DNA of 64,000 nucleotides from Atopobium deltae (GTDB lineage: Bacteria > Actinomycetota > Coriobacteriia > Coriobacteriales > Atopobiaceae): contig NZ_KQ959487.1 of NCBI RefSeq assembly GCF_001552785.1, positions 186,575 through 250,574 on the forward strand, in the 5' to 3' direction. The notes beneath the pieces are model-generated. The model made no database searches. It had not been told where the DNA came from and worked only from the letters and a program-made list of their open reading frames with translations. A program made the translations under genes and the position numbers. Numbering within the stretch: position 1 is the stretch's first letter; the number at the start of each line of letters is the position of its first letter. Shown here in pieces: positions 7,749 through 64,000 of the stretch.

Positions 7749-7917
7749 ACGACAAAGAAAAAGCCTCCGTCCCAACGCGGGAACGGAGGCTCGGTTATCG
7801 TATTTACTCACCAACATCGCTGGCGGCTTTGCCATGACTCTCGTACGAAACGAAACTCAGCGGCACAGTGCGGCACTCAAAAATGCAGGTCAGAACCCTA
7901 TCAGCCTACTCCCACTC
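7738..7917. repeat. guaA-type attachment repeat, copy 3 (at guaA itself)
   Basis: About 180 bp ending in CTACTCCCACTC (7906-7917), which is the guaA stop codon and the codons before it. It carries the hairpin AGCCTCCGTCCC/GGGAACGGAGGCT (7762-7791), which can also end guaA-side transcription. It is the recombined junction joining the tet(W) cassette to the intact chromosomal guaA. Confidence 0.8.
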
Positions 7918-9567
7918 AATCGTCGCGGGGGGCTTGGGCGTGATGTCGTAGACCACGCGGTTAATACCCTCGACCTCGCTCACAACGCGGCTCGAAATCT
8001 TGCTCAGCACGTCGTACGGAAGCTTGGCCCAGTCCGCGGTCATGGCGTCGGTACTCTCGACCGCGCGCAAAATAATGGTGTGGCCGTAAGTGCGCTCATC
8101 GCCCATCACGCCAACCGAACGGATGCTCGGCAACACCGCAAAATACTGCCAGCAGGCGTGCTCGGAGTTGCGCTTACCCGTTTGCTCAAAGAGGCGCTGG
8201 TTGTAGGCATCAAGCTCTTCTCTGACGATAAAATCAGCGTCCTTGAGCGTCGTGAGTTTCTCGTCGGTAATTTCGCCAATAATGCGAATAGCAAGGCCAG
8301 GGCCTGGGAATGGCTGACGATACACCATGGAATCGGGCAGACCCAGCGCGCTACCCAAGGCGCGGACCTCGTCTTTGAAGAAGTGATCCAGCGGCTCGAC
8401 CAAATCAAAACGCACGCCTTCGGGGAAGGGAATCAGATTGTGGTGGCTCTTAATCGTGGAGGCCTTACCACCTGTTTTACGTGCGCCGCTCTCGATAATA
8501 TCGGGGTAAATGGTGCCCTGTGCCAAATACTTCACGCCATCGAGCTTTTGCGCTTCCTCGAAGAAGACCTTCCAGAACTCGCGGCCAATGATGCGGCGCT
8601 TTTTTTCGGGATCGGTTACGCCCGCAAGCAGGCGCGCGTAGCGCTCTTCGGCGTGCACGTGCACCAGCGGAATATCAAACTCGTGGGCAAAGACTTGCTC
8701 GACGCTTTCGGGCTCGCCCTTGCGAAGCATGCCGTGGTTAACAAACACGCAGGTCAACTGGTCGCCCACCGCGCGATGCACGAGTGCTGCGGTCACGGCG
8801 GAATCCACGCCGCCGCTCAGCGCCAGGATGACTTTATCGGAGCCAATGTGCTCGCGGATCTCGGCAACCTTTGCTTCGATAAGGTTGTCCATCGTCCAGT
8901 TTGGCTCAAGTCCGCAAATCTTAAAGAGGAAATTCGAAAGCATGGTTTGCCCGTAGGCGGTGTGATTGACCTCGGGATGGAACTGCGTTGCAAAAAGACG
9001 GCGCTCGGGATTTTCGTACGCAGCAATGGGGCAGGTCTCGGTGCTTGCCGTAAGCGTAAAGCCCTCAGGAAGTCTGTCGACGGCATCGCGGTGGCTCATC
9101 CACACGGTTTGCTCGTCGGAAGGCGTGCCTTCCAACAGCTGCGACTCACCGTGGCGCGTCAGAGTTGCGGGACCATACTCGCCCTTCTCGGTATGTGCAA
9201 CGCTACCACCGAGCGTGGCTGCCATGATTTGCTCGCCATAGCAAAAGCCGAGGATCGGCAGACCCAAATCAAAAATGGCGGGATCCATACTGGGGGCGTC
9301 TTCGGCATACACCGAGGCGGGGCCTCCCGATAAGATCACCGCTGCAGGTTCCATAGCCGCGAGCTCAGACGCCGAAATATCGCAGGGCACAAGCTCGGAA
9401 TATACATGCAAATCGCGGACGCGACGTGCGATGAGCTGACCATACTGTGCGCCAAAATCAAGAACGACAACACGCTGAGACGTGCTCGAGGTGCTTGACG
9501 CACATGAGGCGCTCGATCCGCTCGGGACGTTCGACGTGTTTGAAGTATGTGAAGTGCTAGAGGCCAT
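7906..9567 (-). CDS. guaA: GMP synthase (glutamine-hydrolysing)
   Basis: Converts XMP to GMP using ATP and glutamine. The GATase domain has the nucleophile Cys in LGFCYGEQ and the His-Glu pair in FHPEVNHT. The ATP-pyrophosphatase domain has SGGVDS. The dimerisation domain ends in KPPATIEWE, the usual C-terminus, so cassette insertion has left the gene intact. The ATG at 9567 follows AAAGGAG by 5 bases; an upstream in-frame start lacks a binding site. The 553-residue product carries a Ser/Thr-rich tail of about 30 residues ahead of QRVVVLDFGAQYGQ, which is absent from most homologues. Confidence 0.96.
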   Translation of the reverse strand: MASSTSHTSNTSNVPSGSSASCASSTSSTSQRVVVLDFGAQYGQLIARRVRDLHVYSELVPCDISASELAAMEPAAVILSGGPASVYAEDAPSMDPAIFDLGLPILGFCYGEQIMAATLGGSVAHTEKGEYGPATLTRHGESQLLEGTPSDEQTVWMSHRDAVDRLPEGFTLTASTETCPIAAYENPERRLFATQFHPEVNHTAYGQTMLSNFLFKICGLEPNWTMDNLIEAKVAEIREHIGSDKVILALSGGVDSAVTAALVHRAVGDQLTCVFVNHGMLRKGEPESVEQVFAHEFDIPLVHVHAEERYARLLAGVTDPEKKRRIIGREFWKVFFEEAQKLDGVKYLAQGTIYPDIIESGARKTGGKASTIKSHHNLIPFPEGVRFDLVEPLDHFFKDEVRALGSALGLPDSMVYRQPFPGPGLAIRIIGEITDEKLTTLKDADFIVREELDAYNQRLFEQTGKRNSEHACWQYFAVLPSIRSVGVMGDERTYGHTIILRAVESTDAMTADWAKLPYDVLSKISSRVVSEVEGINRVVYDITPKPPATIEWE

Positions 9568-9912: not shown

Positions 9913-11418
9913 GTGTTTCGTAAGACTAAAAATACCGATGAAGCAGTCGCATCATCTGCAGCGCACAACACGCCAAGCACGACGCATGGCGTTTCTCGTG
10001 GTGCCGACGCCCTCAATCGCTACCAGCAGCTACGCAAAAAGCGCTCACGCATAAGCATCCTAAAGCGCATTCTTGCAGGTATTGGCGTTGCAGCAACGCT
10101 TGGTATTATCGCCATCGCACTGTACATCGGCTATATTAACGCAACCCTGCAAAGCGGTATCGATAAAAACCTCCTCAAGCAACTGCATATGACCGAGCCC
10201 GGCAGCACTTTTTACATGCTGCTACTTGGTGTCGATAAGGACCAGAATCGCGTCAACAGCAAGGAGTACGGCAAGGATCCGCACGCGTACCGCTCTGACT
10301 CGATTATGCTTGTGCGTGTGGATCCCAAAAATAAAAAGGTGACCTTGGTATCTATTCACCGCGACACGCTCGTGGAACTCAAGGGGCACGGCAAACAAAA
10401 GATTAATGCCGCCTATTCGATTGGCGGGCCTGCCTACGCGACTGAAGTGATTTCTAAATTTGCGGGTGTGCCCATCTCGCACTACGCCGACATCGACTTT
10501 GACAATTTTGTTTCCGTGGTCGATAGCATCGGCGGTATCGAGGTGACCGTTCCCAAACGCGTCAACGACAAGAAGGGCACAGGCGAGGTGGTCGAGGCTG
10601 GCAAGCAGGTGCTCAACGGCAAGCAAGCCTTGGTTTTGTGCCGCGCGCGGCACGCCTACGATGCCTATGGTGACGGAGACCTGTATCGCGCCGCTAACCA
10701 GCGCATGGTCATCTCGGCCATTGGTAAAAAGATTCTCGAGCTCGACCCCGTGAGCATGACCAATGCAATTGCTAAGCTTGCAAACGCCGTGACAACCGAC
10801 ATGGACGTGAACACCATTGTTGGTCTTGCAACGCAGTTGCGCGGTATTAATACCGAGAAGGACATCTATTCTGGCATGGAGCCTACGACCTCGCGTTATG
10901 TCAATAACACCTGGTACGAGATTTGCAACACGAGCGCCTGGCAAAAGATGATGCAGCGCGTTAACAAGGGACTTTCGCCTTACGAGCGTCCAGAAGATAA
11001 CCCCACCATTGGTATTGCGGGTGTTTCGGGGGGCTTTAGCAACACGCCGACAACGGGTAATGAATCGACGACGCCCAACGGTACCAACCCCAACGGTACC
11101 AACCCCAACGCCGCTGGCACCAATACCCAGGCGAATCGTTCGGGACGTGTGCGCGTCTTAAATGCTGCGGGAACAAATGGTCTTGCAGGACGCATTAGTG
11201 CGACTCTCAAAAATCGGGGCTTCAATGCAAAACCTGGTAACGCTAACACCACGTATAAAAAGACGATCATCGTGTACAACGGCGATAACGAGGCAACTGC
11301 CCAAGCCATTAATGATACCTTGGGTGGCGGCATTAAGGTTGTCAAGAATAACGGCCAATATGCCACAGATTATGACGTTTTCGTTATCGTGGGTGCCGAT
11401 AAGAGCAAGCAGCGGTAG
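9913..11418 (+). CDS. LytR-CpsA-Psr family cell-wall glycopolymer transferase
   Basis: A membrane-anchored protein that attaches undecaprenyl-linked anionic glycopolymers to peptidoglycan. A basic N-terminus and one membrane segment (about residues 50-75) lead to the LCP domain: MLLLGVDKD, YRSDSIMLVRVDP, LVSIHRDT and ALVLCRARH. A Gly/Thr/Asn-rich linker, including two NGTNP repeats (about residues 390-412), joins a C-terminal LytR_C domain. AAAGGAG lies 6 bases before the GTG at 9913, which gives 501 residues; the earlier in-frame ATG at 9862 has no binding site. It stands alone and converges on ychF. Confidence 0.9.
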   Translation: MFRKTKNTDEAVASSAAHNTPSTTHGVSRGADALNRYQQLRKKRSRISILKRILAGIGVAATLGIIAIALYIGYINATLQSGIDKNLLKQLHMTEPGSTFYMLLLGVDKDQNRVNSKEYGKDPHAYRSDSIMLVRVDPKNKKVTLVSIHRDTLVELKGHGKQKINAAYSIGGPAYATEVISKFAGVPISHYADIDFDNFVSVVDSIGGIEVTVPKRVNDKKGTGEVVEAGKQVLNGKQALVLCRARHAYDAYGDGDLYRAANQRMVISAIGKKILELDPVSMTNAIAKLANAVTTDMDVNTIVGLATQLRGINTEKDIYSGMEPTTSRYVNNTWYEICNTSAWQKMMQRVNKGLSPYERPEDNPTIGIAGVSGGFSNTPTTGNESTTPNGTNPNGTNPNAAGTNTQANRSGRVRVLNAAGTNGLAGRISATLKNRGFNAKPGNANTTYKKTIIVYNGDNEATAQAINDTLGGGIKVVKNNGQYATDYDVFVIVGADKSKQR

Positions 11419-11704: not shown

Positions 11705-12769
11705 CTACACGTTAAATCTAAAGTGCATGATATCGCCATCCTGAACAACGTAATCCTTGCCTTCCATGCGCAAACGACCAGCGTTTTTACAGCCAGCTTC
11801 TCCATTGTAGGCAACGTAGTCCTCAAAGCTCGCAACTTCAGCTTTAATAAAGCCTCGCTCAAAATCTGAGTGGATCACACCAGCAGCCTGTGGAGCTTTA
11901 GCACCCACGGGAATAGTCCATGCCTTGACTTCCATCTCACCCGCAGTGAAATAACTTTGCAGTCCCAACAAAGAGTAGGCTTCTTGGGCCAGCGTCTCAA
12001 GTCCGCTTTTTTCCAAGCCGAGCGAATCAAGATACTCACGCGCATCCGCAGGGTCAAGGTCAGCAAGCTCTGCTTCTATCTCGGCACACACGGCAATCGG
12101 CTTTTGTCCATCCAGCATGTCGAGCTCAGTCTTTAAGCCATCTTCATCGGTGTTGGCAACATACAAAACGGGTTTCATCGTAAGCAAAAACAAATCATGC
12201 GCCGCGATCTTCTCGTCATCGCTCATATCCATCTGAGCGGCACGGTAACCTTCATTGAGCCATGCCTCCAACTTGCGAGCAATCTCGAGTTTGGACAGGT
12301 TGTCCTTATCGCGCTTGGCCTCTTTTTCGAGCTTTGGTAAGGCTTTTTCCAGCGTTGCCAAGTCTGCCAAAATGAGCTCCGTGTTGATAATCTCGACATC
12401 GGAAGCTGGATCCACGCGCCCCTCAACATGCACGACGTCGGGGTCTGAAAAATAACGAACAACCTGGCAGATAGCATCGGTCTCACGAATGTTTGCCAAA
12501 AACTGGTTGCCCAGGCCCTCGCCCGCATTGGCGCCTTTGACCAAGCCGGCGATGTCGACAAATTCCACGGTAGCGGGCACAATGCGCCCAGGATTCACGA
12601 TGTCGGCAAGGGTTTGCAGACGCGCGTCAGGCACATCAACAATGCCGACGTTGGGGTCGATCGTGGCAAAAGGATAGTTGGCGGCCAGCCCCGACTTACG
12701 CGTCAGCGCCGTGAACAGGGTCGACTTACCAACGTTGGGCAATCCTACAATACCTATCGACAAAGCCAT
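11705..12769 (-). CDS. ychF: Redox-regulated ribosome-associated ATPase/GTPase YchF (Obg family)
   Basis: The 354-residue length matches YchF/OLA1. G1 GLPNVGKST occupies residues 9-17, followed by DIAGLVKGA (G3) and the family's altered specificity loop ANTDE, linked to ATP preference. A helical region precedes the C-terminal TGS domain, which ends VVQDGDIMHFRFNV. YchF binds ribosomes and is implicated in translation fidelity and oxidative stress response. AAAGG lies shortly upstream of the ATG. It is the last gene before the convergent LCP gene. Confidence 0.95.
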   Translation of the reverse strand: MALSIGIVGLPNVGKSTLFTALTRKSGLAANYPFATIDPNVGIVDVPDARLQTLADIVNPGRIVPATVEFVDIAGLVKGANAGEGLGNQFLANIRETDAICQVVRYFSDPDVVHVEGRVDPASDVEIINTELILADLATLEKALPKLEKEAKRDKDNLSKLEIARKLEAWLNEGYRAAQMDMSDDEKIAAHDLFLLTMKPVLYVANTDEDGLKTELDMLDGQKPIAVCAEIEAELADLDPADAREYLDSLGLEKSGLETLAQEAYSLLGLQSYFTAGEMEVKAWTIPVGAKAPQAAGVIHSDFERGFIKAEVASFEDYVAYNGEAGCKNAGRLRMEGKDYVVQDGDIMHFRFNV

Positions 12770-12909: not shown

Positions 12910-14646
12910 CTAGCGCACGTCCTCAGCGGCATCTCCTATATGCGAAATAACACGCAATCCCTGCCGAGAAGATCGTCGAGTTTGTCGAGCATGACCAATA
13001 ATTGCGGGGGCTGCGGAGGCCTTGTCGGCGTGTTTTTGGGTGCGCCCATTAGCACTCTTTTCGGCGCTCTGCTCGGCTCGCTCGTCGACGCATGCATCGG
13101 TGCGCTGATTAATACGCTTATCGGCAATATATACTAGCAGCGGTTCGTCAGGCGCGAACGCGGGCGCTGTGGTGGATGCTGATGTATTTTGGTTGGGCGT
13201 ACTGGGAGCGCTTGCTGAAGAGCGGCGCTGCACCTCGTTGGTATTCTCGTCAACACCAGCGGCAGCCGCGCCAGACGCGCTAGCATCATCACGCACCAGC
13301 TCACTCGAGGCAAGTTCGTCGGCGCCGTCTGCTAAGACGCGCAGGGCAATGCCCACCGAATGCGCCGTGACGCCCTTCTCGCCAGCATCGTTCATCAAGA
13401 CCTTAAAACTGCGCATAAGCTGCTGCTTTCCTTTTTGTGTCAGGGCATGCAGTCGCTCACGTTGACGAGCAAGTGCCGCTTCTTCTCGCTGTTTGACGGG
13501 GTCTTTGACGACAAGCGCCGCGGGGTCATACGGCTCCATAAACAGCGCGCCTGTAGGGCAGCTGCGCACACACGCGCTGCAGTCCATGCAGTAGATGGGC
13601 TCGACCGACACGCGCCCTCGATCGTTCATGTCGATGCAATGAGTGGGGCACACATCAACGCACAGATCACACGAGGTGCACTTAGTACTATCGCACACGG
13701 CGGTGCGCGGCGAAAAACGATCTGCCAGGCGCGGGTGATCTTGCAGCGCTTTGAGCAGCAGCTGTCGTTTTTGCACAATAGTGCGCTTGCGGCGCGATGA
13801 ACTCGTCTCGCCCGTTATACGCTCGAGCGACGTTTGCAGCTCGTCAATGCGACGGCCGTGCTCCTGCAGTTTTTGCTGCACGCTCACAGCGCCTGCAACC
13901 AACGGATTATGCATCGCGAGCATCGATTGCCCCGCCCGCAGCGCATTGTTCACAAATTGCTGACGCTCGTAGGAGCGCTTTTTAGCATGATTGAGTTTGC
14001 GTGGATTGGTCTCGAGACCCACGCTGCGACCCGAGAGCTTCTCGGCACGCGCAATATAAGACATGTAGCAGGCCTCGCCCGTGGTGGTACGACAGGTATC
14101 GCACACGCCCTTGGGCAAAAAGACAGACAGGTTGGAATAATCCACCAACACCGAGAACCACACCTCAGCGGGCACGGCCCCCACGCAGGGCAAAAGCACT
14201 TCGTTTTCGGCGGGGTGGCGGCGCAAGGCGCGGGTGCAGGTCACGTAGCACATCTCGTGCGTTGCCGCAGCCTCGACAATGCGGTCATACAGCTGGCGCG
14301 CCGAATGGTGCGAATCGGTAAAGGCATCCGTCGGACACGCTGCCACGCACAGACCACACTTGCGGCACGCGTCCGAAACGCTAATCGCGCTCTTCTCGAT
14401 AGTAATGGCCCCAACAGGGCAAACGCCCAAACAAGCCGAACACGCACCCGCATCGCGCGTCATGCAACGCGTGCAGGGAATGGTGTTTGCGCGGGGAGTA
14501 AATTTGTACGTATCGGGATTAAATGGAGTTTGTTGGCTGGAATCATCCAAGATGCGACCGAGCGCGTCCAACGGATTGGAAAGCGCGCTCAGATCGCTTT
14601 GCATATCTATGAAGCTGTCGAGAAGATCATGTCGTCCGTCAGCCAT
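12910..14646 (-). CDS. Multi-cluster 4Fe-4S ferredoxin-type protein, function unknown
   Basis: A 578-residue soluble protein with four ferredoxin-like cysteine motifs. The N-terminal pair contains CSACLGVCPVGAI and CRKCGLCVAACP (roughly residues 65-115). The second pair, CTSCDLCVDVCP and CMDCSACVRSCP, is around residues 335-385. More cysteines lie between (CYVTCTRAL, LLPCVGAVP, CDTCRTTTGEAC), suggesting a further metal site. The last 150 residues are Ala/Ser/Thr-rich and low-complexity. I recognise no catalytic domain. The start is 13 bases after the transketolase stop, with AGGAG inside that gene's end, so the two are probably co-transcribed. It may pass electrons in redox metabolism; that is inference. 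Confidence 0.75.
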   Translation of the reverse strand: MADGRHDLLDSFIDMQSDLSALSNPLDALGRILDDSSQQTPFNPDTYKFTPRANTIPCTRCMTRDAGACSACLGVCPVGAITIEKSAISVSDACRKCGLCVAACPTDAFTDSHHSARQLYDRIVEAAATHEMCYVTCTRALRRHPAENEVLLPCVGAVPAEVWFSVLVDYSNLSVFLPKGVCDTCRTTTGEACYMSYIARAEKLSGRSVGLETNPRKLNHAKKRSYERQQFVNNALRAGQSMLAMHNPLVAGAVSVQQKLQEHGRRIDELQTSLERITGETSSSRRKRTIVQKRQLLLKALQDHPRLADRFSPRTAVCDSTKCTSCDLCVDVCPTHCIDMNDRGRVSVEPIYCMDCSACVRSCPTGALFMEPYDPAALVVKDPVKQREEAALARQRERLHALTQKGKQQLMRSFKVLMNDAGEKGVTAHSVGIALRVLADGADELASSELVRDDASASGAAAAGVDENTNEVQRRSSASAPSTPNQNTSASTTAPAFAPDEPLLVYIADKRINQRTDACVDERAEQSAEKSANGRTQKHADKASAAPAIIGHARQTRRSSRQGLRVISHIGDAAEDVR

Positions 14647-16530: not shown

Positions 16531-17217
16531 CTACGCCTGTGCGACAACTTTGGCCCAGTCGGCAGCAAAGCTTGCCAGGCCCTGGTCAGTCAGAGGGTGA
16601 TGCACGCATTTCTTCAGAGCACCAAAGGGTACGGTCACGATGTCGGCACCAAGCAGCGCCGCCTGGGTCACGTGATTGGGCGTACGCACCGAAGCAGTAA
16701 TGATCTCGGGGCCACCCTCCTCGTCCCAGTAGCCGTAGCTGTAGTTCTTCACGCAATCAACCACGGTCTCGAGCTGGGCTATGCCGTCGTCGGCGATGTC
16801 GTCAAAGCGACCAACAAACGGCGAAATGTAACGAGCGCCAGCACGTGCAGCGAGCAGGGCTTGCGTTGCCGAGAAGACCAACGTCATGTTAACGCGAACG
16901 CCGTGACGGACAAGCTCATGCGTTGCAGGAAGCGAAGCCTCGCAAATGGGGAGCTTTACCACGATGTTGGGAGCAAGTGCGGCAAGGCGAATGCCATCAG
17001 CAATCATCTCTTCGGTAGTCTCGGCCGTGGACTCGGCAGAAACGGGAACATCGTCGCCGACAATCTTGCAAATCTTGACCATATGATCTTCAAAATCTGC
17101 CAGCTTACCACCCGTACGAGCATACAAGCTCGGGTTGGTGGTGACGCCGGACAAAATGCCCCAGCTTGCGGCTTCTTCGATATCTTTTAGATCAGCTGTG
17201 TCGATAAAAAACTTCAT
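16531..17217 (-). CDS. Transaldolase-like fructose-6-phosphate aldolase (operon 1)
   Basis: A 228-residue member of the small TalC/FSA class I aldolase family. It starts MKFFIDTAD, followed by GVTTNPSL, and has the Schiff-base lysine in IVVKLPICE. GARYISPFVGR and IVTVPFGALKK also match. Family members either move dihydroxyacetone units between sugar phosphates or cleave fructose 6-phosphate, and sequence alone does not say which. An insertion near YSYGYWDEEGG is longer than usual. It lies directly upstream of the split transketolase, so the two may act in series. Confidence 0.88.
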   Translation of the reverse strand: MKFFIDTADLKDIEEAASWGILSGVTTNPSLYARTGGKLADFEDHMVKICKIVGDDVPVSAESTAETTEEMIADGIRLAALAPNIVVKLPICEASLPATHELVRHGVRVNMTLVFSATQALLAARAGARYISPFVGRFDDIADDGIAQLETVVDCVKNYSYGYWDEEGGPEIITASVRTPNHVTQAALLGADIVTVPFGALKKCVHHPLTDQGLASFAADWAKVVAQA

Positions 17218-17330
17218 ATGTCAATCTCCTTAACTGTTGAGCGACCGAACACAAGCGACGAAAGCCGCACCTGCGAAAAACCGTATCGCAGCGGTCGGCA
17301 GCGCCACAGCGCGCAGGTCGCACGGTTTAC

Positions 17331-17786
17331 TTAGTCCTCCAGACCAGCATTGATCAGATCGGCAAGCGCTTGGGTATCATCGGTTGCACGAACTGCATCT
17401 CTGAACTTCTCGTCCATAAGCATAACAGCTGCCTTGGACAGGAGCTTTAAGTGAGTTGTTCCAGCTTCAAGACCAGGCACAAGCAGGGCAAGTGCTACGT
17501 CAACAGGTTGATCATCAAACGAAGGCCACTCAACAGGCTTGACGAGCTTCAGAAGCAGGATGCCGGCTTTATTAATAACATCACATTTGGCATGAGGAAC
17601 AGCAAAACCATGCTCCATGCCCGTTGCGCCTTGCTCTTCACGAGCGATAAATGCGTCGTAGATACTCTTGGCGTCATCGCCAAAGCCCAACTCGACACCT
17701 TTTTGGGAAATAAGCTCAAGCGCCTTCTCACGAGAATCAACATCAACCTGGACAAGAATCTGGTCGGAGCTTACAAACTTACTCAC
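17331..17786 (-). CDS. PTS fructose-type EIIA (operon 1)
   Basis: A 151-residue cytoplasmic phosphocarrier that receives phosphate from HPr. The phosphorylated histidine is in HGFAVPHAK. The family fold is supported by GATGMEHGFAVPH and VDVALALLVPG. AGGGAGG lies 5 bases before a GTG at 17786, preferred over the upstream in-frame start. It works with the EIIC and EIIB encoded upstream in the same operon, here separated by the GatZ-like gene. Confidence 0.9.
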   Translation of the reverse strand: MSKFVSSDQILVQVDVDSREKALELISQKGVELGFGDDAKSIYDAFIAREEQGATGMEHGFAVPHAKCDVINKAGILLLKLVKPVEWPSFDDQPVDVALALLVPGLEAGTTHLKLLSKAAVMLMDEKFRDAVRATDDTQALADLINAGLED

Positions 17787-17858
17787 AAAAACCTCCCTAA
17801 AAAATGAGCGGCCAGCAATCATTTGCCAGCCGCCCAGACTTACACCGAACTTCTCACC

Positions 17859-19133
17859 TTAGTCTTCAAGCGCAGCGCATACACGAGAAGTCAAATGATC
17901 AAGGTTCAGGCACTCTACATACTGGCGGATGGGGCGCTTGATGTGTTCGATCACAAAACGCTTGCCATCAATACCAGCGGCCGTAAGGTTAGTGTACAGC
18001 TTATCCATCTCTGTTTTAACCTCATTATCATTAAAAACGTAATGACCAGAGATATCAAGAATTTTTAGCGAGAGTTCTTCGTCGGCGAGAATATCTGCGA
18101 CTTGCAGCTTGGTTTGCTCGCCCACCATCCACTTGCGCCAACGCTCGGTCTTGATGGCCTTGACCAGCAAGACTTCCTTCAAGTTGGAAGGATCTTTGCA
18201 AAGGCCTTCTTTCACCAAGATGTCCTGAACCGCGCAGAGCTTCAGGTATGCACGCGTCTCCTCGGTACCGTACTGCGGCGCGACGTTTGAGGCGGTCACG
18301 CGAGCAGGAATGTGCTCGAGCAAGGTGACGTCATCCATGTAGTCGGCGTTGTGCTCCTTGAGGCCCACGCCGTAGCGTGCGGCCATGTGCGAAAGTTCAA
18401 TGGCGTTCTTAAAGTCGTAGTGCCCAACCTGCTCGGTGTAGCGGGTGAGCGTACCCGTCTGTCCTACGATGAAGGTGGGCATGGGCAGGTTGCGACGACC
18501 AAGCTCTACCTGCAAGTACTTGATGAATTCCTCGTACTTATCGGCAGACGTAAGGCCACCGTTGGTCTCTTCGGTGCCAACCTCGTAGCCGATCTCGGGA
18601 AGGCCTAGCGCACGGCGCTGCTGCTCGCAGTACTCGATAAGTTCGACGGTGCGGCGCTCGACAACGTCCAGGGGGATAACCTTGCCAATGACAAAGGGGT
18701 CCTTGGTGGGGTCAATCATCAGCAGGTCAAAGCCAGCTTTAATGTCAGCGAGATAGGAAGCCTTGGCCTTCTCCATAGCCTCGTCCTCGGGTAGGTGTGC
18801 ATTGCGCTCCTCGTCGCGCTGCCAGGGACCACCGTGGTCGCGGCACAAATAGTACAGGCCGTCAAAGCCGACCTCGTCGGCAGCCTTTTTAATGTCAGCA
18901 GCAAAACGAACCTGATCCCAGCCGTTGACGTAGCCAGCACCAAACTCGTCCGAGTCAACCTGGTTGCGGCTTGCAATGAACATCAGAGGGAAATCGTGCT
19001 CCCGCGCAAGTTCGAATGACGCTTGCAACAGGTTGGGAGACATAGGTCCAATGCCTAAAATAGTCGACGATGTTCCAGACTCCTGCAGCTTGAGCATTCC
19101 TTCAACACATTTCTTGATAGGGAGCTTTTCCAT
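17859..19133 (-). CDS. Tagatose-bisphosphate aldolase subunit, GatZ/KbaZ family
   Basis: A 424-residue TIM-barrel protein of the GatZ/KbaZ family. It has the typical IGPMSPNLLQA, CRDHGGPWQRDEE, IDPTKDP, YEVGTEETNGGL and VGQTGTLTRYTEQVG stretches. In enteric bacteria GatZ or KbaZ supports the catalytic GatY/KbaY aldolase in galactitol or N-acetylgalactosamine breakdown. No GatY homologue is visible in this window. The protein may pair with an aldolase coded elsewhere or act by itself on the operon's sugar phosphate. It lies between PTS components. Confidence 0.88.
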   Translation of the reverse strand: MEKLPIKKCVEGMLKLQESGTSSTILGIGPMSPNLLQASFELAREHDFPLMFIASRNQVDSDEFGAGYVNGWDQVRFAADIKKAADEVGFDGLYYLCRDHGGPWQRDEERNAHLPEDEAMEKAKASYLADIKAGFDLLMIDPTKDPFVIGKVIPLDVVERRTVELIEYCEQQRRALGLPEIGYEVGTEETNGGLTSADKYEEFIKYLQVELGRRNLPMPTFIVGQTGTLTRYTEQVGHYDFKNAIELSHMAARYGVGLKEHNADYMDDVTLLEHIPARVTASNVAPQYGTEETRAYLKLCAVQDILVKEGLCKDPSNLKEVLLVKAIKTERWRKWMVGEQTKLQVADILADEELSLKILDISGHYVFNDNEVKTEMDKLYTNLTAAGIDGKRFVIEHIKRPIRQYVECLNLDHLTSRVCAALED

Positions 19134-19266
19134 GAAGATCCTTCCATTCCTAATTCGAAATTTACTACTTGTACTACTTTGCTCGTGATGTATCGTACCT
19201 TGCGCGTGTCAGCGCACGTAAGCGCAGCGACCTTCGCGCGATCTTCTCGTCAGGCGCTCAAGGTGC

Positions 19267-20343
19267 TTACTTTGCGTCTGCAGCCAGCTTTGGCTTCATG
19301 ACAATCAGGATGACCGCGCCGACAAGCGCACCAATAACGATGTCCAAACAGAACAGGGGCATGTTATTCGTGGCAAATGCGACGATAAAACCACCGTGAG
19401 GCACGAAGCACTCGATGCCCTGGATAACGGCCAGCGCAGCACCCACAGCCGAACCGATCATGATGCCTGGCAGCGTGTGTGCCAGATCCTTAACTGCAAA
19501 GGGGATGGCTCCCTCGGTAATGCCGATGCAACCCATGAAGATGGCCGAGACACCCATTTGGCGGTCGGTCTCGTCGAATTTATTGCGAGCGAGAAGGGCG
19601 GCGATGCCGCAGGCTAAAGGCGGTACCGCAACGGCAACGCGAAATGCGCCATTAGGGCCATACACAGCCGTGGTCATCAGGGCCATGGTAAAGGTAGAGG
19701 CCGTCTTGTTAACAGGGCCACCCATATCAAAGGCGGTCATAAGGCCAATGACGATGCCGAGGACAACAGCGGATCCACCCTGCAAATTCTTGAGGAGGTC
19801 TGTCAGCCAACCCATAAAGGCGCCCAGGGGCACAGCTAATACGTAGACGTACAAAAGACCCCAGACCAGCGAGGTAAGGATCGGGATGATGAGGATGGGC
19901 ATGATGGTGCGGATAACATCGTTGACCTTCCAGGTCTTCATCCATTTAACCCAGTAACCGACACAGATGGCCAAAACCATGCCACCCAAAAAGCCAGTCG
20001 AAACTTCCGTCTCGCCAACCATAACGGGGTTGCTCACGAGGTAACCCATAATAAAGCCTGGCGCTAAAGCGGGCTTACCCGAAAGCGAATATGCAATATA
20101 CGCTGTCATGACTGGGATCATCATCTTGATACCAGCCATACCAATCACGTTCAAATTCTGCATGAAGGGATTGGTGAGCTCCATGCCACCCGCGCCTGCT
20201 TTACCAGACGCAAGAGAAAATGCTAAAAACACACCGCCGACGACCACAATGGGGATAAAGTACGATACGCCCGTATTGAAAGCTTTGAGCAGGTCTTTGC
20301 CCAAGTTATCGAACAACCCCTTCTGTTTTTTCTCCGAAGCCAT
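19267..20343 (-). CDS. PTS fructose-type EIIC permease (operon 1)
   Basis: A 358-residue membrane protein with about nine hydrophobic segments. It transports and phosphorylates a sugar with EIIA and EIIB. Fructose-family landmarks include GVSYFIPIVVVGGV near the N-terminus, the conserved AFDMGGPVNK and GITEGAIPFAV. GGAAAGGAAC precedes the ATG at 20343; the listed earlier start is just upstream of this binding site. The substrate cannot be read from sequence. The GatZ-like neighbour suggests a sugar or polyol entering as a ketose or tagatose phosphate. Confidence 0.9.
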   Translation of the reverse strand: MASEKKQKGLFDNLGKDLLKAFNTGVSYFIPIVVVGGVFLAFSLASGKAGAGGMELTNPFMQNLNVIGMAGIKMMIPVMTAYIAYSLSGKPALAPGFIMGYLVSNPVMVGETEVSTGFLGGMVLAICVGYWVKWMKTWKVNDVIRTIMPILIIPILTSLVWGLLYVYVLAVPLGAFMGWLTDLLKNLQGGSAVVLGIVIGLMTAFDMGGPVNKTASTFTMALMTTAVYGPNGAFRVAVAVPPLACGIAALLARNKFDETDRQMGVSAIFMGCIGITEGAIPFAVKDLAHTLPGIMIGSAVGAALAVIQGIECFVPHGGFIVAFATNNMPLFCLDIVIGALVGAVILIVMKPKLAADAK

Positions 20344-20396: not shown

Positions 20397-20720
20397 TTAC
20401 TCGCCGATAAGTTCGAGCAACTCGTCAATCGCCGATGCGGCGTCACGAATAACATCAGCCGAACCTACAACAAGTACGCGATCCTCGTCGCGCTTCTCGT
20501 CAAAGCGTTCGTCACCCTCAATGCCCACGTCAATCGCTAACAAAACGCCATCAGCAGACTCGATGTCATCTTCATCGAGCTCGTTGTCTGCGCCGTAGCC
20601 ACCCTGCGTCTCGACCTTGTACTCAAAGCCTCGTTTTTCGCACTCGTCCTCGATAGCCTTCTGTGCCATAAAGGTGTGGGCAATGCCGACAGTGCATGCT
20701 GTTACTGCAACGATTTTCAT
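20397..20720 (-). CDS. PTS fructose-type EIIB (operon 1)
   Basis: A 107-residue phosphocarrier starting MKIVAVTACTVGIAHTFMA. The cysteine aligned with the phosphorylated residue of fructose EIIB is followed by TVGIAHT rather than the commoner PTGIAHT. Acidic residues are abundant in the second half. AAGGGGGTGAG precedes the ATG. It is the first gene of operon 1, transcribed away from the LacI regulator. Confidence 0.9.
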   Translation of the reverse strand: MKIVAVTACTVGIAHTFMAQKAIEDECEKRGFEYKVETQGGYGADNELDEDDIESADGVLLAIDVGIEGDERFDEKRDEDRVLVVGSADVIRDAASAIDELLELIGE

Positions 20721-29733: not shown

Positions 29734-31407
<1,674 letters not shown>

Positions 31408-50192: not shown

Positions 50193-50633
50193 TTAAGCCT
50201 CCAAATCAATCTTGGTGGGGTTCTGGGCAGCGTGAGGATGCTCCGAACCAGCGTATACATGCAGCTTGCGGTATTGCTGAGCGCCAAGGCGTGTCTTGGG
50301 AAGCATGCCCTTGATTGCGTGCTCAATAACTCGCTCGGGGTGTTTTTCCATAGCCTCTTTGTAGCCTACGGTCTTCAGACCACCCAAAAAGCCAGAGTAA
50401 CGCCAATATGATTTGTGATCAGCCTTAACACCAGTAAGAACGACCTTATCGGCATTAATGATAACAACGTAATCACCGGTATCGGTGTGAGGGGTGTACT
50501 GAGGCTTGTTCTTACCACGAAGAATCATAGCAACCTTGGTCGCCAAGCGTCCCAGGGTTGCGCCCTCAGCGTCTACGAGCACCCAGTTGCGCTCGACTTC
50601 GCCAGTTTTGGCATAATGAGTCGATTTATTCAC
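50193..50633 (-). CDS. rplM: 50S ribosomal protein L13
   Basis: The 146-residue L13 has RNWVLVDAEGATLGRLAT and LRGKNKPQYTPHTDTGD, then RVIEHAIKGMLPKTRLG and LHVYAGSEHPHAAQ. Translation starts at a GTG at 50633, 5 bases after GGAGGAG; the longer frame upstream is an artefact. It pairs with rpsI as in most bacteria. Confidence 0.97.
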   Translation of the reverse strand: MNKSTHYAKTGEVERNWVLVDAEGATLGRLATKVAMILRGKNKPQYTPHTDTGDYVVIINADKVVLTGVKADHKSYWRYSGFLGGLKTVGYKEAMEKHPERVIEHAIKGMLPKTRLGAQQYRKLHVYAGSEHPHAAQNPTKIDLEA

Positions 50634-50937: not shown

Positions 50938-51936
50938 ATGATCACCCTGACCTCTGTAGATTTTTCTGAACTTGACTCGACCGCAAAAGCCCACACCCAC
51001 ACCCTGCCCATCGAGCAAACCAGCGTGTGGGCGCGCTATCAAAACACCATCGACGGACGCCGTCCGTGGGGCGCCTACCTTATACAGCAGAACGGCGAAC
51101 TTCTCGGCTTTATTTCACTCATCGAATTTACGACACACGGCTATCGTTACCTGCGCTCGATGCATGGTCCTTCGTGGCTAGCAAAGCCTGACGAGAAGAC
51201 CGAGGCGGCGTTTTTGCAAGCCTTGGTAGCCGACGTCCGCGCGCGCGATCCCAAAGTCGTGTTTTTGCGTGTCGATACTTGGTATGAAGCGATGACCACG
51301 CCCGTACTTTCGACCGTGCCTTACGACCAGACTGTCGTGATTTCGCTGGAGGATAGCGACGACGAGATCTTAAACCGCATGAAGAGCCGCGGCCGCCGCG
51401 ATGTGCGCAAGGCCCTGCGCGAATGCGATGCTGTATGCAGCGACGAGACCGAGCAAGCCTACCAAGATTTTTCGCCCTATTACGCCATTATGCAGCAGAC
51501 CGCTCAGCGCGATGGTTTTAGCTGCTCGCCCATGAGCGACTACAGCGATATGCTCCAGTCGCTGGGCAAAGAGCATTGCCGTGTTTTTGCCGCACGCTTA
51601 GATGGACAGGTGTTGAGCTGGTCAATTGTGACGCTGAGTGGCACGCGCGCCGTGCGCTACTATGCTGGCATGCGCTCTGATGCCATGCGTATGCACGTGA
51701 CCGATAAGCTCGTCTATTGCGAGTGCTGTTTGCTTGCCCACATGGGCATCAAGGATTATGACCTCATGGGTATCGGAAGCGATTTTGCCCCCTCGCTCAA
51801 GCGCTTAAACGAGTTCAAAACAAAATTTACGACTCAGATTACGCCCGTGGCAGCTGGTCGCGACATTGCTGTTCGACCCTTGTTCTACCGCAGTTTGACA
51901 CTGGCAAAAAAGTTGAAGACAGCACTGGGACGTTAA
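50938..51936 (+). CDS. FemAB/GNAT-fold peptidoglycan bridge aminoacyltransferase-like protein
   Basis: A 332-residue soluble protein of the FemAB type. Its two GNAT-like halves include LPIEQTSVWARYQ near the N-terminus, RYLRSMHGPSW and VVFLRVDTWYEA. MKSRGRRDVRKALRE follows, and RAVRYYAGMRSD and DYDLMGIGSDF come late. FemAB relatives add amino acids from aminoacyl-tRNA to the lipid II stem peptide. It lacks the long coiled-coil arm of staphylococcal FemX. AAAGGAG is 4 bases before the ATG. It is a single-gene unit with its own promoter and terminator. Confidence 0.8.
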   Translation: MITLTSVDFSELDSTAKAHTHTLPIEQTSVWARYQNTIDGRRPWGAYLIQQNGELLGFISLIEFTTHGYRYLRSMHGPSWLAKPDEKTEAAFLQALVADVRARDPKVVFLRVDTWYEAMTTPVLSTVPYDQTVVISLEDSDDEILNRMKSRGRRDVRKALRECDAVCSDETEQAYQDFSPYYAIMQQTAQRDGFSCSPMSDYSDMLQSLGKEHCRVFAARLDGQVLSWSIVTLSGTRAVRYYAGMRSDAMRMHVTDKLVYCECCLLAHMGIKDYDLMGIGSDFAPSLKRLNEFKTKFTTQITPVAAGRDIAVRPLFYRSLTLAKKLKTALGR

Positions 51937-53071: not shown

Positions 53072-53101
53072 GAGCTTCTTGACAAATCTGTCGAGAAGCT
53101 C
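53072..53101 (-). other. Hairpin between lsrB and lsrF
   Basis: GAGCTTCTTGACA (53072-53084) pairs with TGTCGAGAAGCTC (53089-53101) over 13 positions with one wobble and a 4-base loop. No T-run follows closely on the minus strand. It may protect the lsrB message or reduce read-through into lsrF. Confidence 0.55.
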
Positions 53102-54394: not shown

Positions 54395-55468
54395 TTATGC
54401 TTCAGTTGACGTGCTGTCCTTTACAAACAGCGATTTCAAAAACGTGCCAATATTTGTACCACTCGTAGCTGCTCTCATGACGATAACAACCACGAGTAAG
54501 ACACCAACAGGAATGTCCAAATACTGTGGACTTACTTTGAAGCACAACGGCAAACCAAAGCGTAAAAAGGCGATAACAAATGACGCCAAGCAGGTGCCCG
54601 CAATCGAACCCTTGCCGCCTGTCGAAAGCGTTCCACCCAATACCACCGCGGTAATGATATCCATCGTAAAATCGGCACCAAAATCGGACTTGGCTGTGCC
54701 TAAATACGCGGTGAGCACCGTTCCCGCAAGAGCGGCCGAAAGCGCACTGAGGATATACGTGGACATGATGATGCGACGGCTATTAATACCCGAAAATTCG
54801 GCAGCACTTTGGTTGACGCCCACCAGTGTGATACGGCGACCATACTTTGTCTTGTGTAGCAAGACAAAGGCGAAGATGAGCATGACGATGTAAATCAGCA
54901 GTTGGAAGGGGATTACCCCCAAAAGCTCGAAGCTCGAGATGAATTTAAAATCATCGGGAAATCCGCCAATGCCCTGATAACTTTCCGTCTTAGAAAGCGT
55001 AGAAATAAGCAGCGCGATACCCGAATACAAAAAGCTTCCACCTAGGGTAACGACCATCGCCTGCACACGACAATACGCAATAAAAAATCCCGATAGCGCG
55101 CCACAGGCAAGGGTGAGCAACGTCGCGACCGCTACGGCCCCCCAGATGGGCAGCCCAAAATCCTGCCAACCAACACCAATGGTAATAGAGGTCAAACCCA
55201 CCAGCGAGGCAACCTGAATGTCGATGCCTCCTGTCACCATAACCAGCGTGACAAACAGCGAGATCATAAAAATGGGTAGGCTGTCGTTAATGCTGGTAAA
55301 GAGCAGTGCTGGACGCAAAAACTTGGCATTTGTCGAACCAAAAATGACAAACTCGCAGACGAGAAGGGCAATCAAAATAAGGTTCCAGTTTGTCTGTCCG
55401 CGAGACAAAAACTCTTTGATCTTCTCGCCAGCGCCGGACGTTACCGCCGCATTGATCTTGTTGGTCAT
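54395..55468 (-). CDS. lsrD: AI-2 ABC transporter permease LsrD
   Basis: A 357-residue RbsC-type permease with about nine or ten membrane segments. VTLVMVTGGIDIQVAS near residue 75 and VLGGTLSTGGKGSIAGT later match the family. It partners LsrC as a heterodimer. Its ATG overlaps the lsrC stop (TGATG). The position in lsrA-C-D-B-F order supports LsrD over a generic sugar permease. Confidence 0.9.
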   Translation of the reverse strand: MTNKINAAVTSGAGEKIKEFLSRGQTNWNLILIALLVCEFVIFGSTNAKFLRPALLFTSINDSLPIFMISLFVTLVMVTGGIDIQVASLVGLTSITIGVGWQDFGLPIWGAVAVATLLTLACGALSGFFIAYCRVQAMVVTLGGSFLYSGIALLISTLSKTESYQGIGGFPDDFKFISSFELLGVIPFQLLIYIVMLIFAFVLLHKTKYGRRITLVGVNQSAAEFSGINSRRIIMSTYILSALSAALAGTVLTAYLGTAKSDFGADFTMDIITAVVLGGTLSTGGKGSIAGTCLASFVIAFLRFGLPLCFKVSPQYLDIPVGVLLVVVIVMRAATSGTNIGTFLKSLFVKDSTSTEA

Positions 55469-59417: not shown

Positions 59418-61049
59418 ATGAACAATGCAGATAAGGACGAGCGAGATGAGAAGAGCGCGAGGGACGCAAGGGGCGCAAAAGACGTGCACGAGCAGTACCT
59501 CTTAGCGCTTGACGCGGGCACGGGCAGTGTACGCGCTGTGCTCTTTTCGGTTGAAGGAGCACAAATTTGCGTCGCACAACGTGAATGGCAGCATAAAGAA
59601 GATCCTCGTTGGCCTGGGAGCATGGACTTCGACTGGGTGTATAACTGGAAGCTTACCGTTGACTGTATTCACGAAGTTCTCGATACTACGGGCATTAACC
59701 CGCAATTGATTGCGGGTATTTCGACCACCTGCATGCGAGAAGGAATTCTGCTCTACGACAAGAACGGACGGGAGATTTGGGCTTGTGCCAACGTTGATGC
59801 GCGCAGCGTTGACGAAGTGGGTGAACTTATCGCCATGGACCCCACGCTGGAGCGCGAGCTCTATCGCATCAGTGGCCAAACCTATGCCTTAGGGGCGCTT
59901 CCCCGCCTGCTGTGGGTCAAGAATAAAATGCCCGCAATATATGAACGCGCCGCAACTATTGGCATGTTTAATGACTGGCTCGCCTACAAATTGACAGGTA
60001 TTTTGGCTGTTGAGCCAAGCAATGGAAGCACTACGGGCATCATGGATTTGCACAAGCGCGACTGGGATCCAGCCATCGCACGACGCTGCGGGCTTCGCGA
60101 CGATATTTTTGGTCCCGTGCATGAGTGTGGACAAATTCTTGGGGGCGTTTGCGCACAAAGTGCGCAGGTCACGGGCCTTGCCGAGAAAACCCCCGTGGTG
60201 GTTGGCGGCGGTGATTGCCAGCTTGGTATGGTTGGCATTAACGCCTGTAAGCCTGGCCAGGCAGGTGTGTTTGGTGGCAGTTTTTGGCAATACGAGTTCA
60301 ACACTGCCACAGCCCAGACCGACCCCGCGTGTCGCGTGCGCGTCAATTGTCACGCCATTCCGCAGGTATGGCAGTATGAGGCTTTGGCTTTTAAGCCCGG
60401 ACTTGTCATGCGCTGGTATCGAGACGCCTTCTGTCAGGCTGAAGCACAGCAGGCAAAAGAGCTTGGACTAGACGTCTATGACATCATGAACCGCGAGGCC
60501 GAAAAGGTTCCCGCTGGCAGTCATGGTATGGTCTGTTGCTTTAGCGATGTGATGAACTACATTCATTGGATGCACGCAAGCCCGACCTTCACCAATTTTG
60601 AATTAGATCCCACGCGCTTTAACAAATATAGCTTCTATCGTGCGGTTCTGGAGAACACCGCCCTTCTCGTCAGGGGACACATCGAGCTTGTGGCAGACGC
60701 TACTGGTAATGAACCTGACGAGCTCGTTTTTGCAGGCGGCGCTTCAAAGAGTAATCTGTGGGCACAGATACTTGCTGACGTGTGCCACAAGCGGGTGCAC
60801 GTTCCCGAGGTCAAAGAGGCCACCGCACTTGGTTGCGCCATTCTTGCTGGCTACGGCGTAGGTATCTACCCGAGCATTGCTGAGGGAGCGCAGCGTGTCG
60901 TGAAGTGGAAGCAGACGTTTGAGCCGAATCCAAAGAATTACGATGTGTACGAGAGACTTTACGAAAACTGGAAAGCAATCTATGCAGCTCAATTTGAGCT
61001 GGCTGAGAAAGGCACGACAAGAAGCTTATGGCGAGCACCTGGACTGTAA
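59418..61049 (+). CDS. lsrK: Autoinducer-2 kinase LsrK
   Basis: A 543-residue FGGY-family kinase that phosphorylates AI-2 in the cytoplasm, trapping it and creating the LsrR ligand. It follows enteric LsrK closely: LALDAGTGSVRAVLF, STTCMREGILLY, IWACANVDAR, PRLLWVKN, NDWLAYKLTG, EPSNGSTTG, PVVVGGGDCQLG, VKEATALGCAI and the C-terminal SLWRAPGL. A 25-residue charged N-terminal extension precedes the kinase. It lies 51 bases after lsrR with GGAGGG upstream. Confidence 0.95.
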   Translation: MNNADKDERDEKSARDARGAKDVHEQYLLALDAGTGSVRAVLFSVEGAQICVAQREWQHKEDPRWPGSMDFDWVYNWKLTVDCIHEVLDTTGINPQLIAGISTTCMREGILLYDKNGREIWACANVDARSVDEVGELIAMDPTLERELYRISGQTYALGALPRLLWVKNKMPAIYERAATIGMFNDWLAYKLTGILAVEPSNGSTTGIMDLHKRDWDPAIARRCGLRDDIFGPVHECGQILGGVCAQSAQVTGLAEKTPVVVGGGDCQLGMVGINACKPGQAGVFGGSFWQYEFNTATAQTDPACRVRVNCHAIPQVWQYEALAFKPGLVMRWYRDAFCQAEAQQAKELGLDVYDIMNREAEKVPAGSHGMVCCFSDVMNYIHWMHASPTFTNFELDPTRFNKYSFYRAVLENTALLVRGHIELVADATGNEPDELVFAGGASKSNLWAQILADVCHKRVHVPEVKEATALGCAILAGYGVGIYPSIAEGAQRVVKWKQTFEPNPKNYDVYERLYENWKAIYAAQFELAEKGTTRSLWRAPGL

Positions 61050-61904: not shown

Positions 61905-61906
61905 GC

Positions 61907-63406
61907 CTATCCGAGTAATTTTCCGAGTGCGGTAATGTAGATCGCAAGCGCGCGCTGCAGCGACGCTTCAGAAATTGCCTCGTTGGGTCCATGGATACTC
62001 CCAACCCACGCAGGCCTTCCATCTTCATGCTCGTATTCAGGACCAAATGCCACCGCATATGGAAAATGCTTTGCATAGGTTCCGCCACCCAAAGTAATGG
62101 GTGCAAGCTTCTCGGGTGACCACTGCGTAAAGCTCGAAAGCAACGCCTGAATTTCTTCCTGCTGCGGATCTTGATACATGCAGACACCGCGGTGTGTCTC
62201 GCAAAAACGTGCGCCATGCTCTTGGCATACCTTCGTTAACTGCTCACTTATGCGATCAGGATTGGTCGATTTGGGCCAACGCGCATCTATGGTTTGCACG
62301 AGCTGCCCATCACGAACGCCAATGACTCCACTCACAATAGTCAACGGCGAGAAGACATCGTCAGTTGCATCGACGCCCAAAAGAGAACCATCCCAGCTTG
62401 CATACAGACGATGCTGCAGCTCAAACCAGGTCTTCTCGGCAGGGCTATACAACTCGTGGTCATACAAATACTTCCCCAGCATGCCGATGGCGCTCTTCGT
62501 GCCCTGCGGCAACGAAGCGTGCCCGCCTACACCCTGGGCCTCAAGACGAATGGTACCGTCTCCCAAATCGCTGGGTGTTATGCCGTCGACCTCAGGTGTT
62601 TCGTCCAAGCGCGCACGGATAACAGCCTGCGCCCGCGACGCCACGGCATTGCGTACGGTGCCTCCTTCGAAAGACACGATACGCCCCTGCGGCTGCAGAT
62701 CAAACGAAATTTCCCCATTATAAGTGCCCTTCTCGCCAATCACGACGGGCCAATACGAGTCGGGCGTGAACAAAAAGTCGGGAGCGGGATAGTGCTTGTT
62801 GTAATATTTTGCATCGTTCATGTGCGTTTCTTCGTTGGTGCCCAACATGACGCGCAAGTCGTGCGCGCGCTCGAGGGGGTGCTCCATAAAAAAGTGGGCC
62901 GCCCAGAGCGATAAGATCGCCGGGCTTTTATCGTCAACCACGCCACGGCCGCACAGATATCCCTCTTTTTTGGTGAGCGCATACGGCTCAAAATCCCAAC
63001 CCGGACCTGCGGGAACAACATCCAAGTGGCCAAACACCGCAATCTGCTTTTTTGTGTTATTTGAGATTGGCACAGCATCTGAGACATCGTCGGTGGTATT
63101 TGAAGTGAATGCAACGACATCTGAGGCGGCTGGCGACTCGGACGCCGAGGGCCGAGGCGCATTGGCGAGAAGATCGGCGTACCCGAGATATTCCTCGCAA
63201 TTGTGCGTGGACAAGCCGAGGCGGCATGCGATCTCCAAGCCCTGCTCGAGCGCTTGTGCCACTTCGGGACCAAAGGGTGCATGGGGCCGTGCGTGCGGAA
63301 TGTTCTCAACACTGGGGATGGCCACGACATTAGCAATATCCTGTACAATTTCATCCCAGTGGCGGTCGATATAGCGGGTAATGGTAGCTTGAGAAATATC
63401 CATCAT
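61907..63406 (-). CDS. M20 family metallopeptidase (Sapep/PepV-like dipeptidase)
   Basis: A 499-residue zinc dipeptidase. FGHLDVVPAGPGW carries the first metal ligand, GRGVVDDKSPAIL the bridging aspartate, and LGTNEETHM the catalytic glutamate pair. GGGTYAKHFPYAVAFGPE is near the C-terminus with the last ligand. A Ser/Thr/Asp-rich stretch of about 35 residues (around 87-120) is inserted before the first metal motif. The ATG follows the upstream stop directly (TGAATG). Confidence 0.88.
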   Translation of the reverse strand: MMDISQATITRYIDRHWDEIVQDIANVVAIPSVENIPHARPHAPFGPEVAQALEQGLEIACRLGLSTHNCEEYLGYADLLANAPRPSASESPAASDVVAFTSNTTDDVSDAVPISNNTKKQIAVFGHLDVVPAGPGWDFEPYALTKKEGYLCGRGVVDDKSPAILSLWAAHFFMEHPLERAHDLRVMLGTNEETHMNDAKYYNKHYPAPDFLFTPDSYWPVVIGEKGTYNGEISFDLQPQGRIVSFEGGTVRNAVASRAQAVIRARLDETPEVDGITPSDLGDGTIRLEAQGVGGHASLPQGTKSAIGMLGKYLYDHELYSPAEKTWFELQHRLYASWDGSLLGVDATDDVFSPLTIVSGVIGVRDGQLVQTIDARWPKSTNPDRISEQLTKVCQEHGARFCETHRGVCMYQDPQQEEIQALLSSFTQWSPEKLAPITLGGGTYAKHFPYAVAFGPEYEHEDGRPAWVGSIHGPNEAISEASLQRALAIYITALGKLLG

Positions 63407-64000
63407 TCACTCACCTGACTTAAAAACCTGGCTCAAAAACGTAATGACTGCTTCATAGGAAGCTAGCGTTTGCGCATGCGGTTGTATCTGCGCTTGTGTA
63501 TTCAACACAGTGTATAAATACGAAAAAATACTATTCTTATCCTGCAGATGCTGGCTTGCGAGCACCACTAAGATGAGCGAGATGGGCTTGTCAGGCGCGG
63601 TATTGGCGTCAGCAAAAACGGCTCGGTCGGGTGCAATGGCAAAAAGACGAAATTGCGAGGCGTAGGTTTCGGTCACGCTATGGGGAATTGCCACGCCTTT
63701 GAAGTACAGGCGATCGGAGCTTTGCTCGCGATCGAGTACCTTGCGCGCTTCGGTTTTGCTCATGCATTCTCGCTGCACAAACATATCCAGCCCCCGCTTC
63801 AAGAGTTGCTCGTAGGAAGCGTTTAGGCCAACTGCAGCGACGCAATCAGCAACATCCGCATCCCCCACCACCGCCAAGCGGCAGAAATTTTGTTCGGGCA
63901 GAAGCAGCGGCAAGCGCTTGCGGTACCCCGCATACAGCACTATTTTTTGCAGTTGCTTGAGGTCCTTATCGCTCAGAATACCCTTGTACGAAAAATTCCA
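63407..64000 (-). CDS. PTS-domain transcriptional regulator, C-terminal part (5' end beyond window)
   Basis: The frame stays open to the window's right edge, so the N-terminus is missing. The visible 198 residues have a short segment with LLLPEQNFCRLAVVG, which fits the end of an EIIB-like region. A mannitol/fructose-type EIIA domain follows, with GVAIPHSVTE containing the phosphorylatable histidine. This order is found at the C-terminus of BglG/MtlR/LicR-type antiterminators and activators. An EIIA of a PTS is less likely given the upstream extension. The stop abuts the M20 peptidase start. Confidence 0.65.
   Translation of the reverse strand, partial: WNFSYKGILSDKDLKQLQKIVLYAGYRKRLPLLLPEQNFCRLAVVGDADVADCVAAVGLNASYEQLLKRGLDMFVQRECMSKTEARKVLDREQSSDRLYFKGVAIPHSVTETYASQFRLFAIAPDRAVFADANTAPDKPISLILVVLASQHLQDKNSIFSYLYTVLNTQAQIQPHAQTLASYEAVITFLSQVFKSGE

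Follow-up and report, generated by a model that had tools for sequence, protein, structure and literature searches.

A frame-independent 13-base element in the Atopobium deltae genome is a candidate DNA-uptake sequence

Why does one seven-base word recur so densely along a stretch of the Atopobium deltae chromosome? The window, by which we mean the whole 64-kb stretch analysed here (contig NZ_KQ959487.1, positions 186,575 to 250,574), holds 115 copies of the core word CGA(G/T)AAG, or CGAKAAG, read with its reverse complement CTTMTCG (K, G or T; M, A or C; N, any base): 40 as CTTCTCG, 32 as CGAGAAG, 25 as CGATAAG and 18 as CTTATCG. Three of these lie in an accessory island at positions 1–7905, and the remaining 112 lie on both strands of the chromosomal part at 7906–64000 (about 2 per kb), where zero-order and second-order models expect 13.5 and 17.7, respectively. 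An original prediction made from the letters of this stretch had put the chromosomal count at about 100 and the number extending to TCTT(A/C)TCG at around 40; exact counting supports both figures, the latter being 42. We consider it likely that the core word is the heart of a DNA-uptake sequence for natural transformation, with the consensus (C/T)TGNCGA(G/T)AAGNNC.

The excess extends to the whole draft genome (1,447,260 bp in 35 contigs, 97% complete), in which CGAKAAG occurs 2,634 times compared with 641 for the reversed control word, and CGAGAAG is the most over-represented of all heptamers under a second-order model (1,660 versus 211). Relative to second-order Markov expectation, CGAGAAG is enriched 7.9-fold and CGATAAG 4.0-fold, and the other single-substitution neighbours of the core word mostly fall at 0.5–2.4 times expectation. 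The consensus is sharp, with only two accepted core words and near-miss words barely enriched. As about 23.6 kb of the genome reads as N, with contigs C6, C12, C16–C23, C26, C28–C31 and C35 consisting of N throughout, the core-word counts are slight underestimates.

The seven bases are only the core of a longer element. An alignment of all copies shows T and G favoured at −3 and −2, followed by a free position, CGA(G/T)AAG, two positions under weak constraint and C (79%), which gives the element TGNCGAKAAGNNC with the consensus (C/T)TGNCGA(G/T)AAGNNC, that is, (C/T)TGNCGAKAAGNNC. Genome-wide, TGNCGAKAAGNNC occurs 731 times compared with 12 for its reverse, and the still longer form (C/T)TGNCGAKAAG(A/G)NC(A/G) occurs 314 times compared with once. 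The flanking TG (−3/−2) and C (+9) are found again in the sense frames, in most antisense frames and in intergenic copies, with the frequency of C at +9 ranging from 0.70 to 0.84 across frames and between genes and standing at 0.49 in antisense frame 1. The density of the extended element in this genome, 0.51 per kb, is the highest seen among genomes of the class; within the window, 32 copies lie beyond the island and 0 within it.

Coding preferences could in principle produce such a word, through codon use or through dipeptides such as Glu-Lys (GAGAAG), Leu-Leu and Leu-Ile. NNC GAK AAG is indeed the commonest frame, the Glu-Lys dipeptide is over-represented (1,717 versus 1,150), and many Coriobacteriia that are poor in the extended element still carry about twice as many copies of CGAKAAG as of the reversed word. 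We called 1,041 genes genome-wide with a simple procedure based on open reading frames and codon usage, and shuffled synonymous codons within each gene so that every protein and every codon count was preserved. The genes contain 2,370 core words, compared with 619±12 after shuffling; the 46 called genes of 7906–64000 contain 105, compared with 23.9±4.1 (maximum 33 in 100 shuffles). Furthermore, out-of-frame copies are enriched equally or more: the ratio over shuffle is 2.5–9.3 in 10 of the 11 word-frame combinations, the exception being CTTATCG in frame 1 (0.85), and it reaches 7.5 and 9.2 for CGAGAAG in its rare sense frames and lies at 2.5–9.3 in all but one of the six antisense combinations. 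Even in the Glu-Lys frame, which holds more copies than any other, the ratio is 3.65. Between genes, 268 core words are present where Markov models expect 56–72 (about 4-fold).

The original prediction that one dipeptide would not suffice as a cause thus holds in ten of the eleven combinations and in intergenic DNA; it had also named near-expectation counts after codon and dipeptide control as grounds for giving up the idea, and the observed count is clearly far from them. Codon and dipeptide use as the source of the excess is hardly credible and, for this Atopobium genome, refuted by synonymous shuffling, although some of the raw surplus of CGAKAAG in other members of the class is probably due to it. 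The dicodons ATTTTG, TTTTTG, GCCGAG and CCGCAG are also strongly over-represented genome-wide given codon use, and the element accounts for only some of them.

Orientation bears on two further explanations. The leading strand was inferred for this draft genome from GC skew and gene direction, 10 of the 12 contigs longer than 40 kb having negative GC skew and mostly reverse genes. The core word lies on the sense strand with probability 0.575 in plus-strand genes and 0.581 in minus-strand genes; after control for gene strand, the leading fraction is 0.503 and the residual replication log-odds are 0.012±0.049, so that no replication polarity was found across the contigs with inferred direction. 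This lack of strand bias disfavours both a Chi-like and an FtsK-orienting reading. Under the former, the element would be a recombination hotspot at which an AddAB helicase-nuclease pauses and starts recombination. The original prediction had proposed checking for enzymes of the RecBCD, AddAB or AdnAB type, and an AddAB-like enzyme is encoded, consisting of an AddA-like helicase-nuclease (C5:13020–16784) and an adjacent PD-(D/E)XK nuclease protein (16763–19963). Chi words are likewise short, over-represented and spread over the chromosome. They act in a single orientation, however, and are enriched on leading strands in known genomes, whereas the orientation of the Atopobium element tracks gene strand only and is not aligned with replication. 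Thirteen bases with internal free positions are, moreover, long for a Chi site, and we regard this explanation as unlikely.

Similarly, the element could be a chromosome-organising word, recognised by a nucleoid, segregation or FtsK-type protein. Its density of roughly 2 per kb, its presence on all large contigs and its near-random spacing (coefficient of variation 1.06, which rules out regular spacing) would suit such a role. Known organising words are polarised or regional. FtsK-orienting polar sequences (KOPS), abundant and chromosome-wide like Chi and the present element, are oriented by replication, with a strong leading-strand skew towards the terminus; the Atopobium element shows no such skew and no regional clustering (1.2–2.4 core words per kb among contigs longer than 40 kb), and no candidate binding protein was found in this genome. 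An organising role therefore appears improbable.

A by-product of mutational, mismatch-repair or methylation context, comparable with HIP1 or with words shaped by very short patch repair, would require no selection for a reader protein. The cyanobacterial word HIP1 is a precedent for very high genome-wide abundance whose cause is still unclear. On the other hand, HIP1 is a palindromic octamer, and the present element is a non-palindromic sequence of 13 bases in which a two-base loose gap precedes a strongly preferred C at +9; its palindromic fusion CTTMTCGAKAAG has only 33 copies. Context-dependent mutation biases act on few bases, which is difficult to reconcile with a 60-fold excess over the reversed control and with single-step neighbours that are barely enriched. 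We consider such an origin very doubtful.

Comparison with relatives shows that the sites themselves turn over. Loci encoding TsaBD-RimI put the genome within or beside Atopobium, the closest named relatives being A. minutum and A. fossor (73%). In genes aligned with A. minutum, 73 core sites are shared, 318 occur only in A. deltae and 139 only in A. minutum. In most frames, a core word is about two times as likely to be retained as a near-miss word, with base identity no higher. This turnover between species indicates a constraint that acts genome-wide, on the number of sites kept and not on their places. In both congeners, A. minutum included, the last core position tolerates A as well as G, which may represent a weak dialect.

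Among 300 genomes of the class, in which families f1 and f2 were matched by inference to Atopobiaceae and Eggerthellaceae, Atopobium and several genera of its family are rich in the extended element (g14, g15, g27, g33 and g34; about 0.07–0.33 per kb versus about 0.002–0.015 for reversed controls). It is moderate in further genera such as g12 and missing from the Atopobiaceae genera g8 and g17. Family f2, which belongs to the same order, shows levels close to background, and single genera of other families (g73 and g51) have high levels again. Frame tests outside Atopobium, based on loci of about 20 kb, show the core word enriched out of frame in Tractidigestivibacter and Thermophilibacter-type loci as well. 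Candidate dialects in Thermophilibacter and Olsenella loci were rejected, as their top words GTGCAAA, GATACGA and GGACTACC are parts of longer repeats, including two palindromes that resemble repetitive extragenic palindromic (REP) sequences.

These observations bear on the three options of the original prediction, an uptake-like, a Chi-like or a chromosome-organising word. The last two are disfavoured by the leading fraction given above, and the first is supported because the element is frame-independent and unpolarised, has a sharp consensus with flanks and turns over genome-wide, and because competence genes and a Flp-pilus locus are present. Four features of the element also characterise the DNA uptake sequences (DUS) and uptake signal sequences (USS) of other bacteria: a single short word far more abundant than compositional models predict, copies in every reading frame and in intergenic DNA that exceed what codon use would give (here with one exception among eleven combinations), a lack of replication-strand polarity (here with replication direction inferred in a draft genome), and a sharp consensus with extended flanks.

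We infer that the organism is competent and that its uptake is biased, and the nature of the receptor is proposed in the same way. A surface DNA receptor of the transformation machinery would preferentially bind DNA bearing the element; the likeliest candidates are ComEA and, within a Flp/Tad pilus, a minor pilin or the tip protein. The pilus and ComEA would pass this DNA on to the ComEC channel, and DprA and RecA would receive the single strand for recombination into the chromosome. Well-matched copies would then be imported and recombined more often, and matches would build up at any tolerated place, coding or not and on either strand, while recently acquired DNA would lack them. Biased import and recombination would thereby explain together the frame and strand independence, the sharpness, the turnover of places and a family-wide spread of varying strength; each rival explanation misses at least one of these properties.

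The gene content is compatible with such a route. Competence genes, which the original prediction had suggested looking for, are present in the form of comEA (encoding SLBB and HhH domains, comE family), comEC and dprA, along with a prepilin peptidase gene and a Tad/Flp locus. The latter encodes TadA, TadB, TadC, RcpC, a TadG-like protein, two Flp-type pilins with G/XXXXEY-like sites and two TadE-like proteins; the assignment of TadB, both pilins and both TadE-like proteins is based solely on position and sequence features. A scan of the genome for GFTLIE-type motifs found no type IVa prepilin, and hence no ComP-like receptor is evident. Another actinobacterium, Micrococcus luteus, cannot be transformed without its Flp pili (PMC4322843). 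Nearly all members of the family have ComEC, and TadA is almost universal across the class, which means that these genes permit but do not predict the element; TadA was discarded as a predictor for this reason.

Several observations weigh against an uptake function. TadA and ComEC are also present in the element-free genera g8 and g17. In A. deltae, ComEC (C25:85025–86671) is 549 aa long: the channel domain is its last part, the C-terminal region is missing and holA begins about 30 bp after its end; in both congeners, ComEC has the full 814 aa. Either the region has truly been lost or the assembly is faulty here. The shortening raises the possibility of a modified or degenerating pathway, although some species known to be transformable also have a ComEC that lacks the Lactamase_B domain (PMC6299819). 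No receptor was identified by the prepilin motif scan, which was the only search made and involved no binding prediction. Inverted pairs between genes are rare, with 9 pairs within 45 bp genome-wide. In Neisseria, inverted DUS pairs are common at terminators; a comparable terminator role was rejected here, the close intergenic pairs being too few. Depletion in mobile DNA is partly circular, because most regions were first picked as the widest gaps in the motif and annotated afterwards; when genes are ranked without such selection, by deciles of codon typicality, the value for the least typical genes falls only modestly (3.15 versus about 4). Finally, we found no experiment in the literature showing competence or uptake bias in any member of the Coriobacteriia.

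Among known systems, the closest counterparts are DUS and USS; the Atopobium element behaves like them in the statistical comparisons above, belongs to neither sequence family and probably relies on a different pilus. The DUS of Neisseriaceae (GCCGTCTGAA and its dialects, read by ComP) has accumulated in thousands of copies in coding and non-coding DNA of the core genome and is family-wide, with variants (PMC3630211). The Atopobium element shares this pattern but differs in sequence (CTG often precedes the core, and the remainder is unrelated), in its few intergenic inverted pairs, in having a Flp/Tad pilus in place of an evident ComP-like receptor, and in belonging to a Gram-positive actinobacterium. 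It resembles the USS of Pasteurellaceae (AAGTGCGGT / ACAAGCGGT), for which a type IV minor pilin is the proposed receptor (PMC12616744), in its short sharp core, weaker flanks at fixed spacing and similar abundance, and differs in sequence, phylum and presumed pilus type. With the Flp/Tad-dependent transformation of M. luteus, it shares comEA, comEC, tad genes and Flp-type pilins, a gene content that does not by itself establish function in Atopobium; a text search of the paper on that system found no uptake sequence (PMC4322843).

According to a 2025 paper, self-DNA uptake words are limited to two proteobacterial families. Our search of open-licence papers found no uptake sequence in Coriobacteriia, and a text search for the word itself returned only unrelated-looking papers. 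The element, unrelated to the uptake sequences of Neisseria and Haemophilus, is the first candidate that we found in Actinomycetota. It seems somewhat more likely than not that sequence-specific uptake arose independently in Coriobacteriia, is read by a Flp/Tad and not a type IVa pilus, and has been kept at changing strength across most Atopobiaceae. If so, Coriobacteriia would join the two lineages whose transformation is known to recognise self-DNA, as the third overall and the first within Actinomycetota, and uptake specificity would be no oddity of two proteobacterial families but would extend to a distant Gram-positive phylum. It would offer an independent test of how uptake words spread, by biased import or by selection. 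It would further hint that host-associated Coriobacteriia, for which we found no report of natural transformation, are capable of it. Adding the element to donor DNA is a suggested route to genetics in this class.

The island at 1–7905, which carries an Msr-type ABC-F gene (3136–4605) and a TetM/TetW-type gene (5016–6935), has no extended element. Of its core words, those at 410–416 and 4521–4527 were placed correctly by the original prediction, and the one at 3547–3553 had been missed. The low count in the island stands but by itself proves little, as shuffling of the island's called genes leads one to expect about 1.8 copies and 2 were seen there. More widely, copies are also scarce in a type III restriction-modification pair, in contigs with a YqaJ recombinase, PriCT primase, DUF1351 or TraG, some of them prophage-like or conjugative, and in the tet and defence region running from C5:175000 into the island. 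Pooled, these regions have 0.38 copies per kb versus 1.92 elsewhere, most of them having been picked for lack of the word; depletion in acquired DNA is supporting evidence and not independent. The island itself is the terminal part of a more extensive accessory region, and genes upstream (C5:175000–186574) look by eye like helicase-like and nuclease-like defence functions.

The window scan places the extended element on the forward strand as TGTCGATAAGGAC (10230–10242), TGCCGATAAGAGC (11394–11406), TGCCGAGAAGATC (12962–12974), TGTCGAGAAGATC (14616–14628), TGCCGAGAAGACC (16867–16879), TGTCGAGAAGCCC (23117–23129), TGACGAGAAGCCC (28834–28846), TGTCGATAAGACC (37049–37061), TGACGAGAAGACC (51189–51201), TGTCGAGAAGCTC (53089–53101) and TGGCGAGAAGATC (63163–63175). 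On the reverse strand, it occurs as TGACGAGAAGATC (12206–12218, 19240–19252 and 23186–23198), TGGCGAGAAGGGC (13372–13384 and 62726–62738), TGCCGAGAAGCTC (14035–14047), TGCCGATAAGTAC (18534–18546), TGACGAGAAGCGC (20490–20502), TGCCGAGAAGACC (24254–24266, 44264–44276 and 62429–62441), TGTCGAGAAGATC (29974–29986), TGGCGAGAAGCCC (35442–35454), TGTCGATAAGGGC (37373–37385), TGGCGATAAGATC (39715–39727 and 39755–39767), TGTCGATAAGCCC (46462–46474), TGCCGATAAGGTC (50442–50454), TGGCGAGAAGATC (55418–55430), TGGCGATAAGTTC (59823–59835) and TGACGAGAAGGGC (60660–60672).

Among the loci used for comparison, REP-like palindromes of the type GTGCAAAAGTGCCTGTCCCC / GGGGACAGGCACTTTTGCAC are abundant in the Thermophilibacter and An733 loci L143, L145 and L167; ATGATACGAAGGGACWGTCCCTTC is present in L156, and L133 contains repeated AGGACTACC within longer repeats such as GTCCCCTGTGGAGGACTACCCTCGGGTCCCGG. 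In the window, TsaB, RimI and TsaD are fused in one protein of 853 aa encoded on the reverse strand at 39759–42320, a fusion also found in named relatives within the family.

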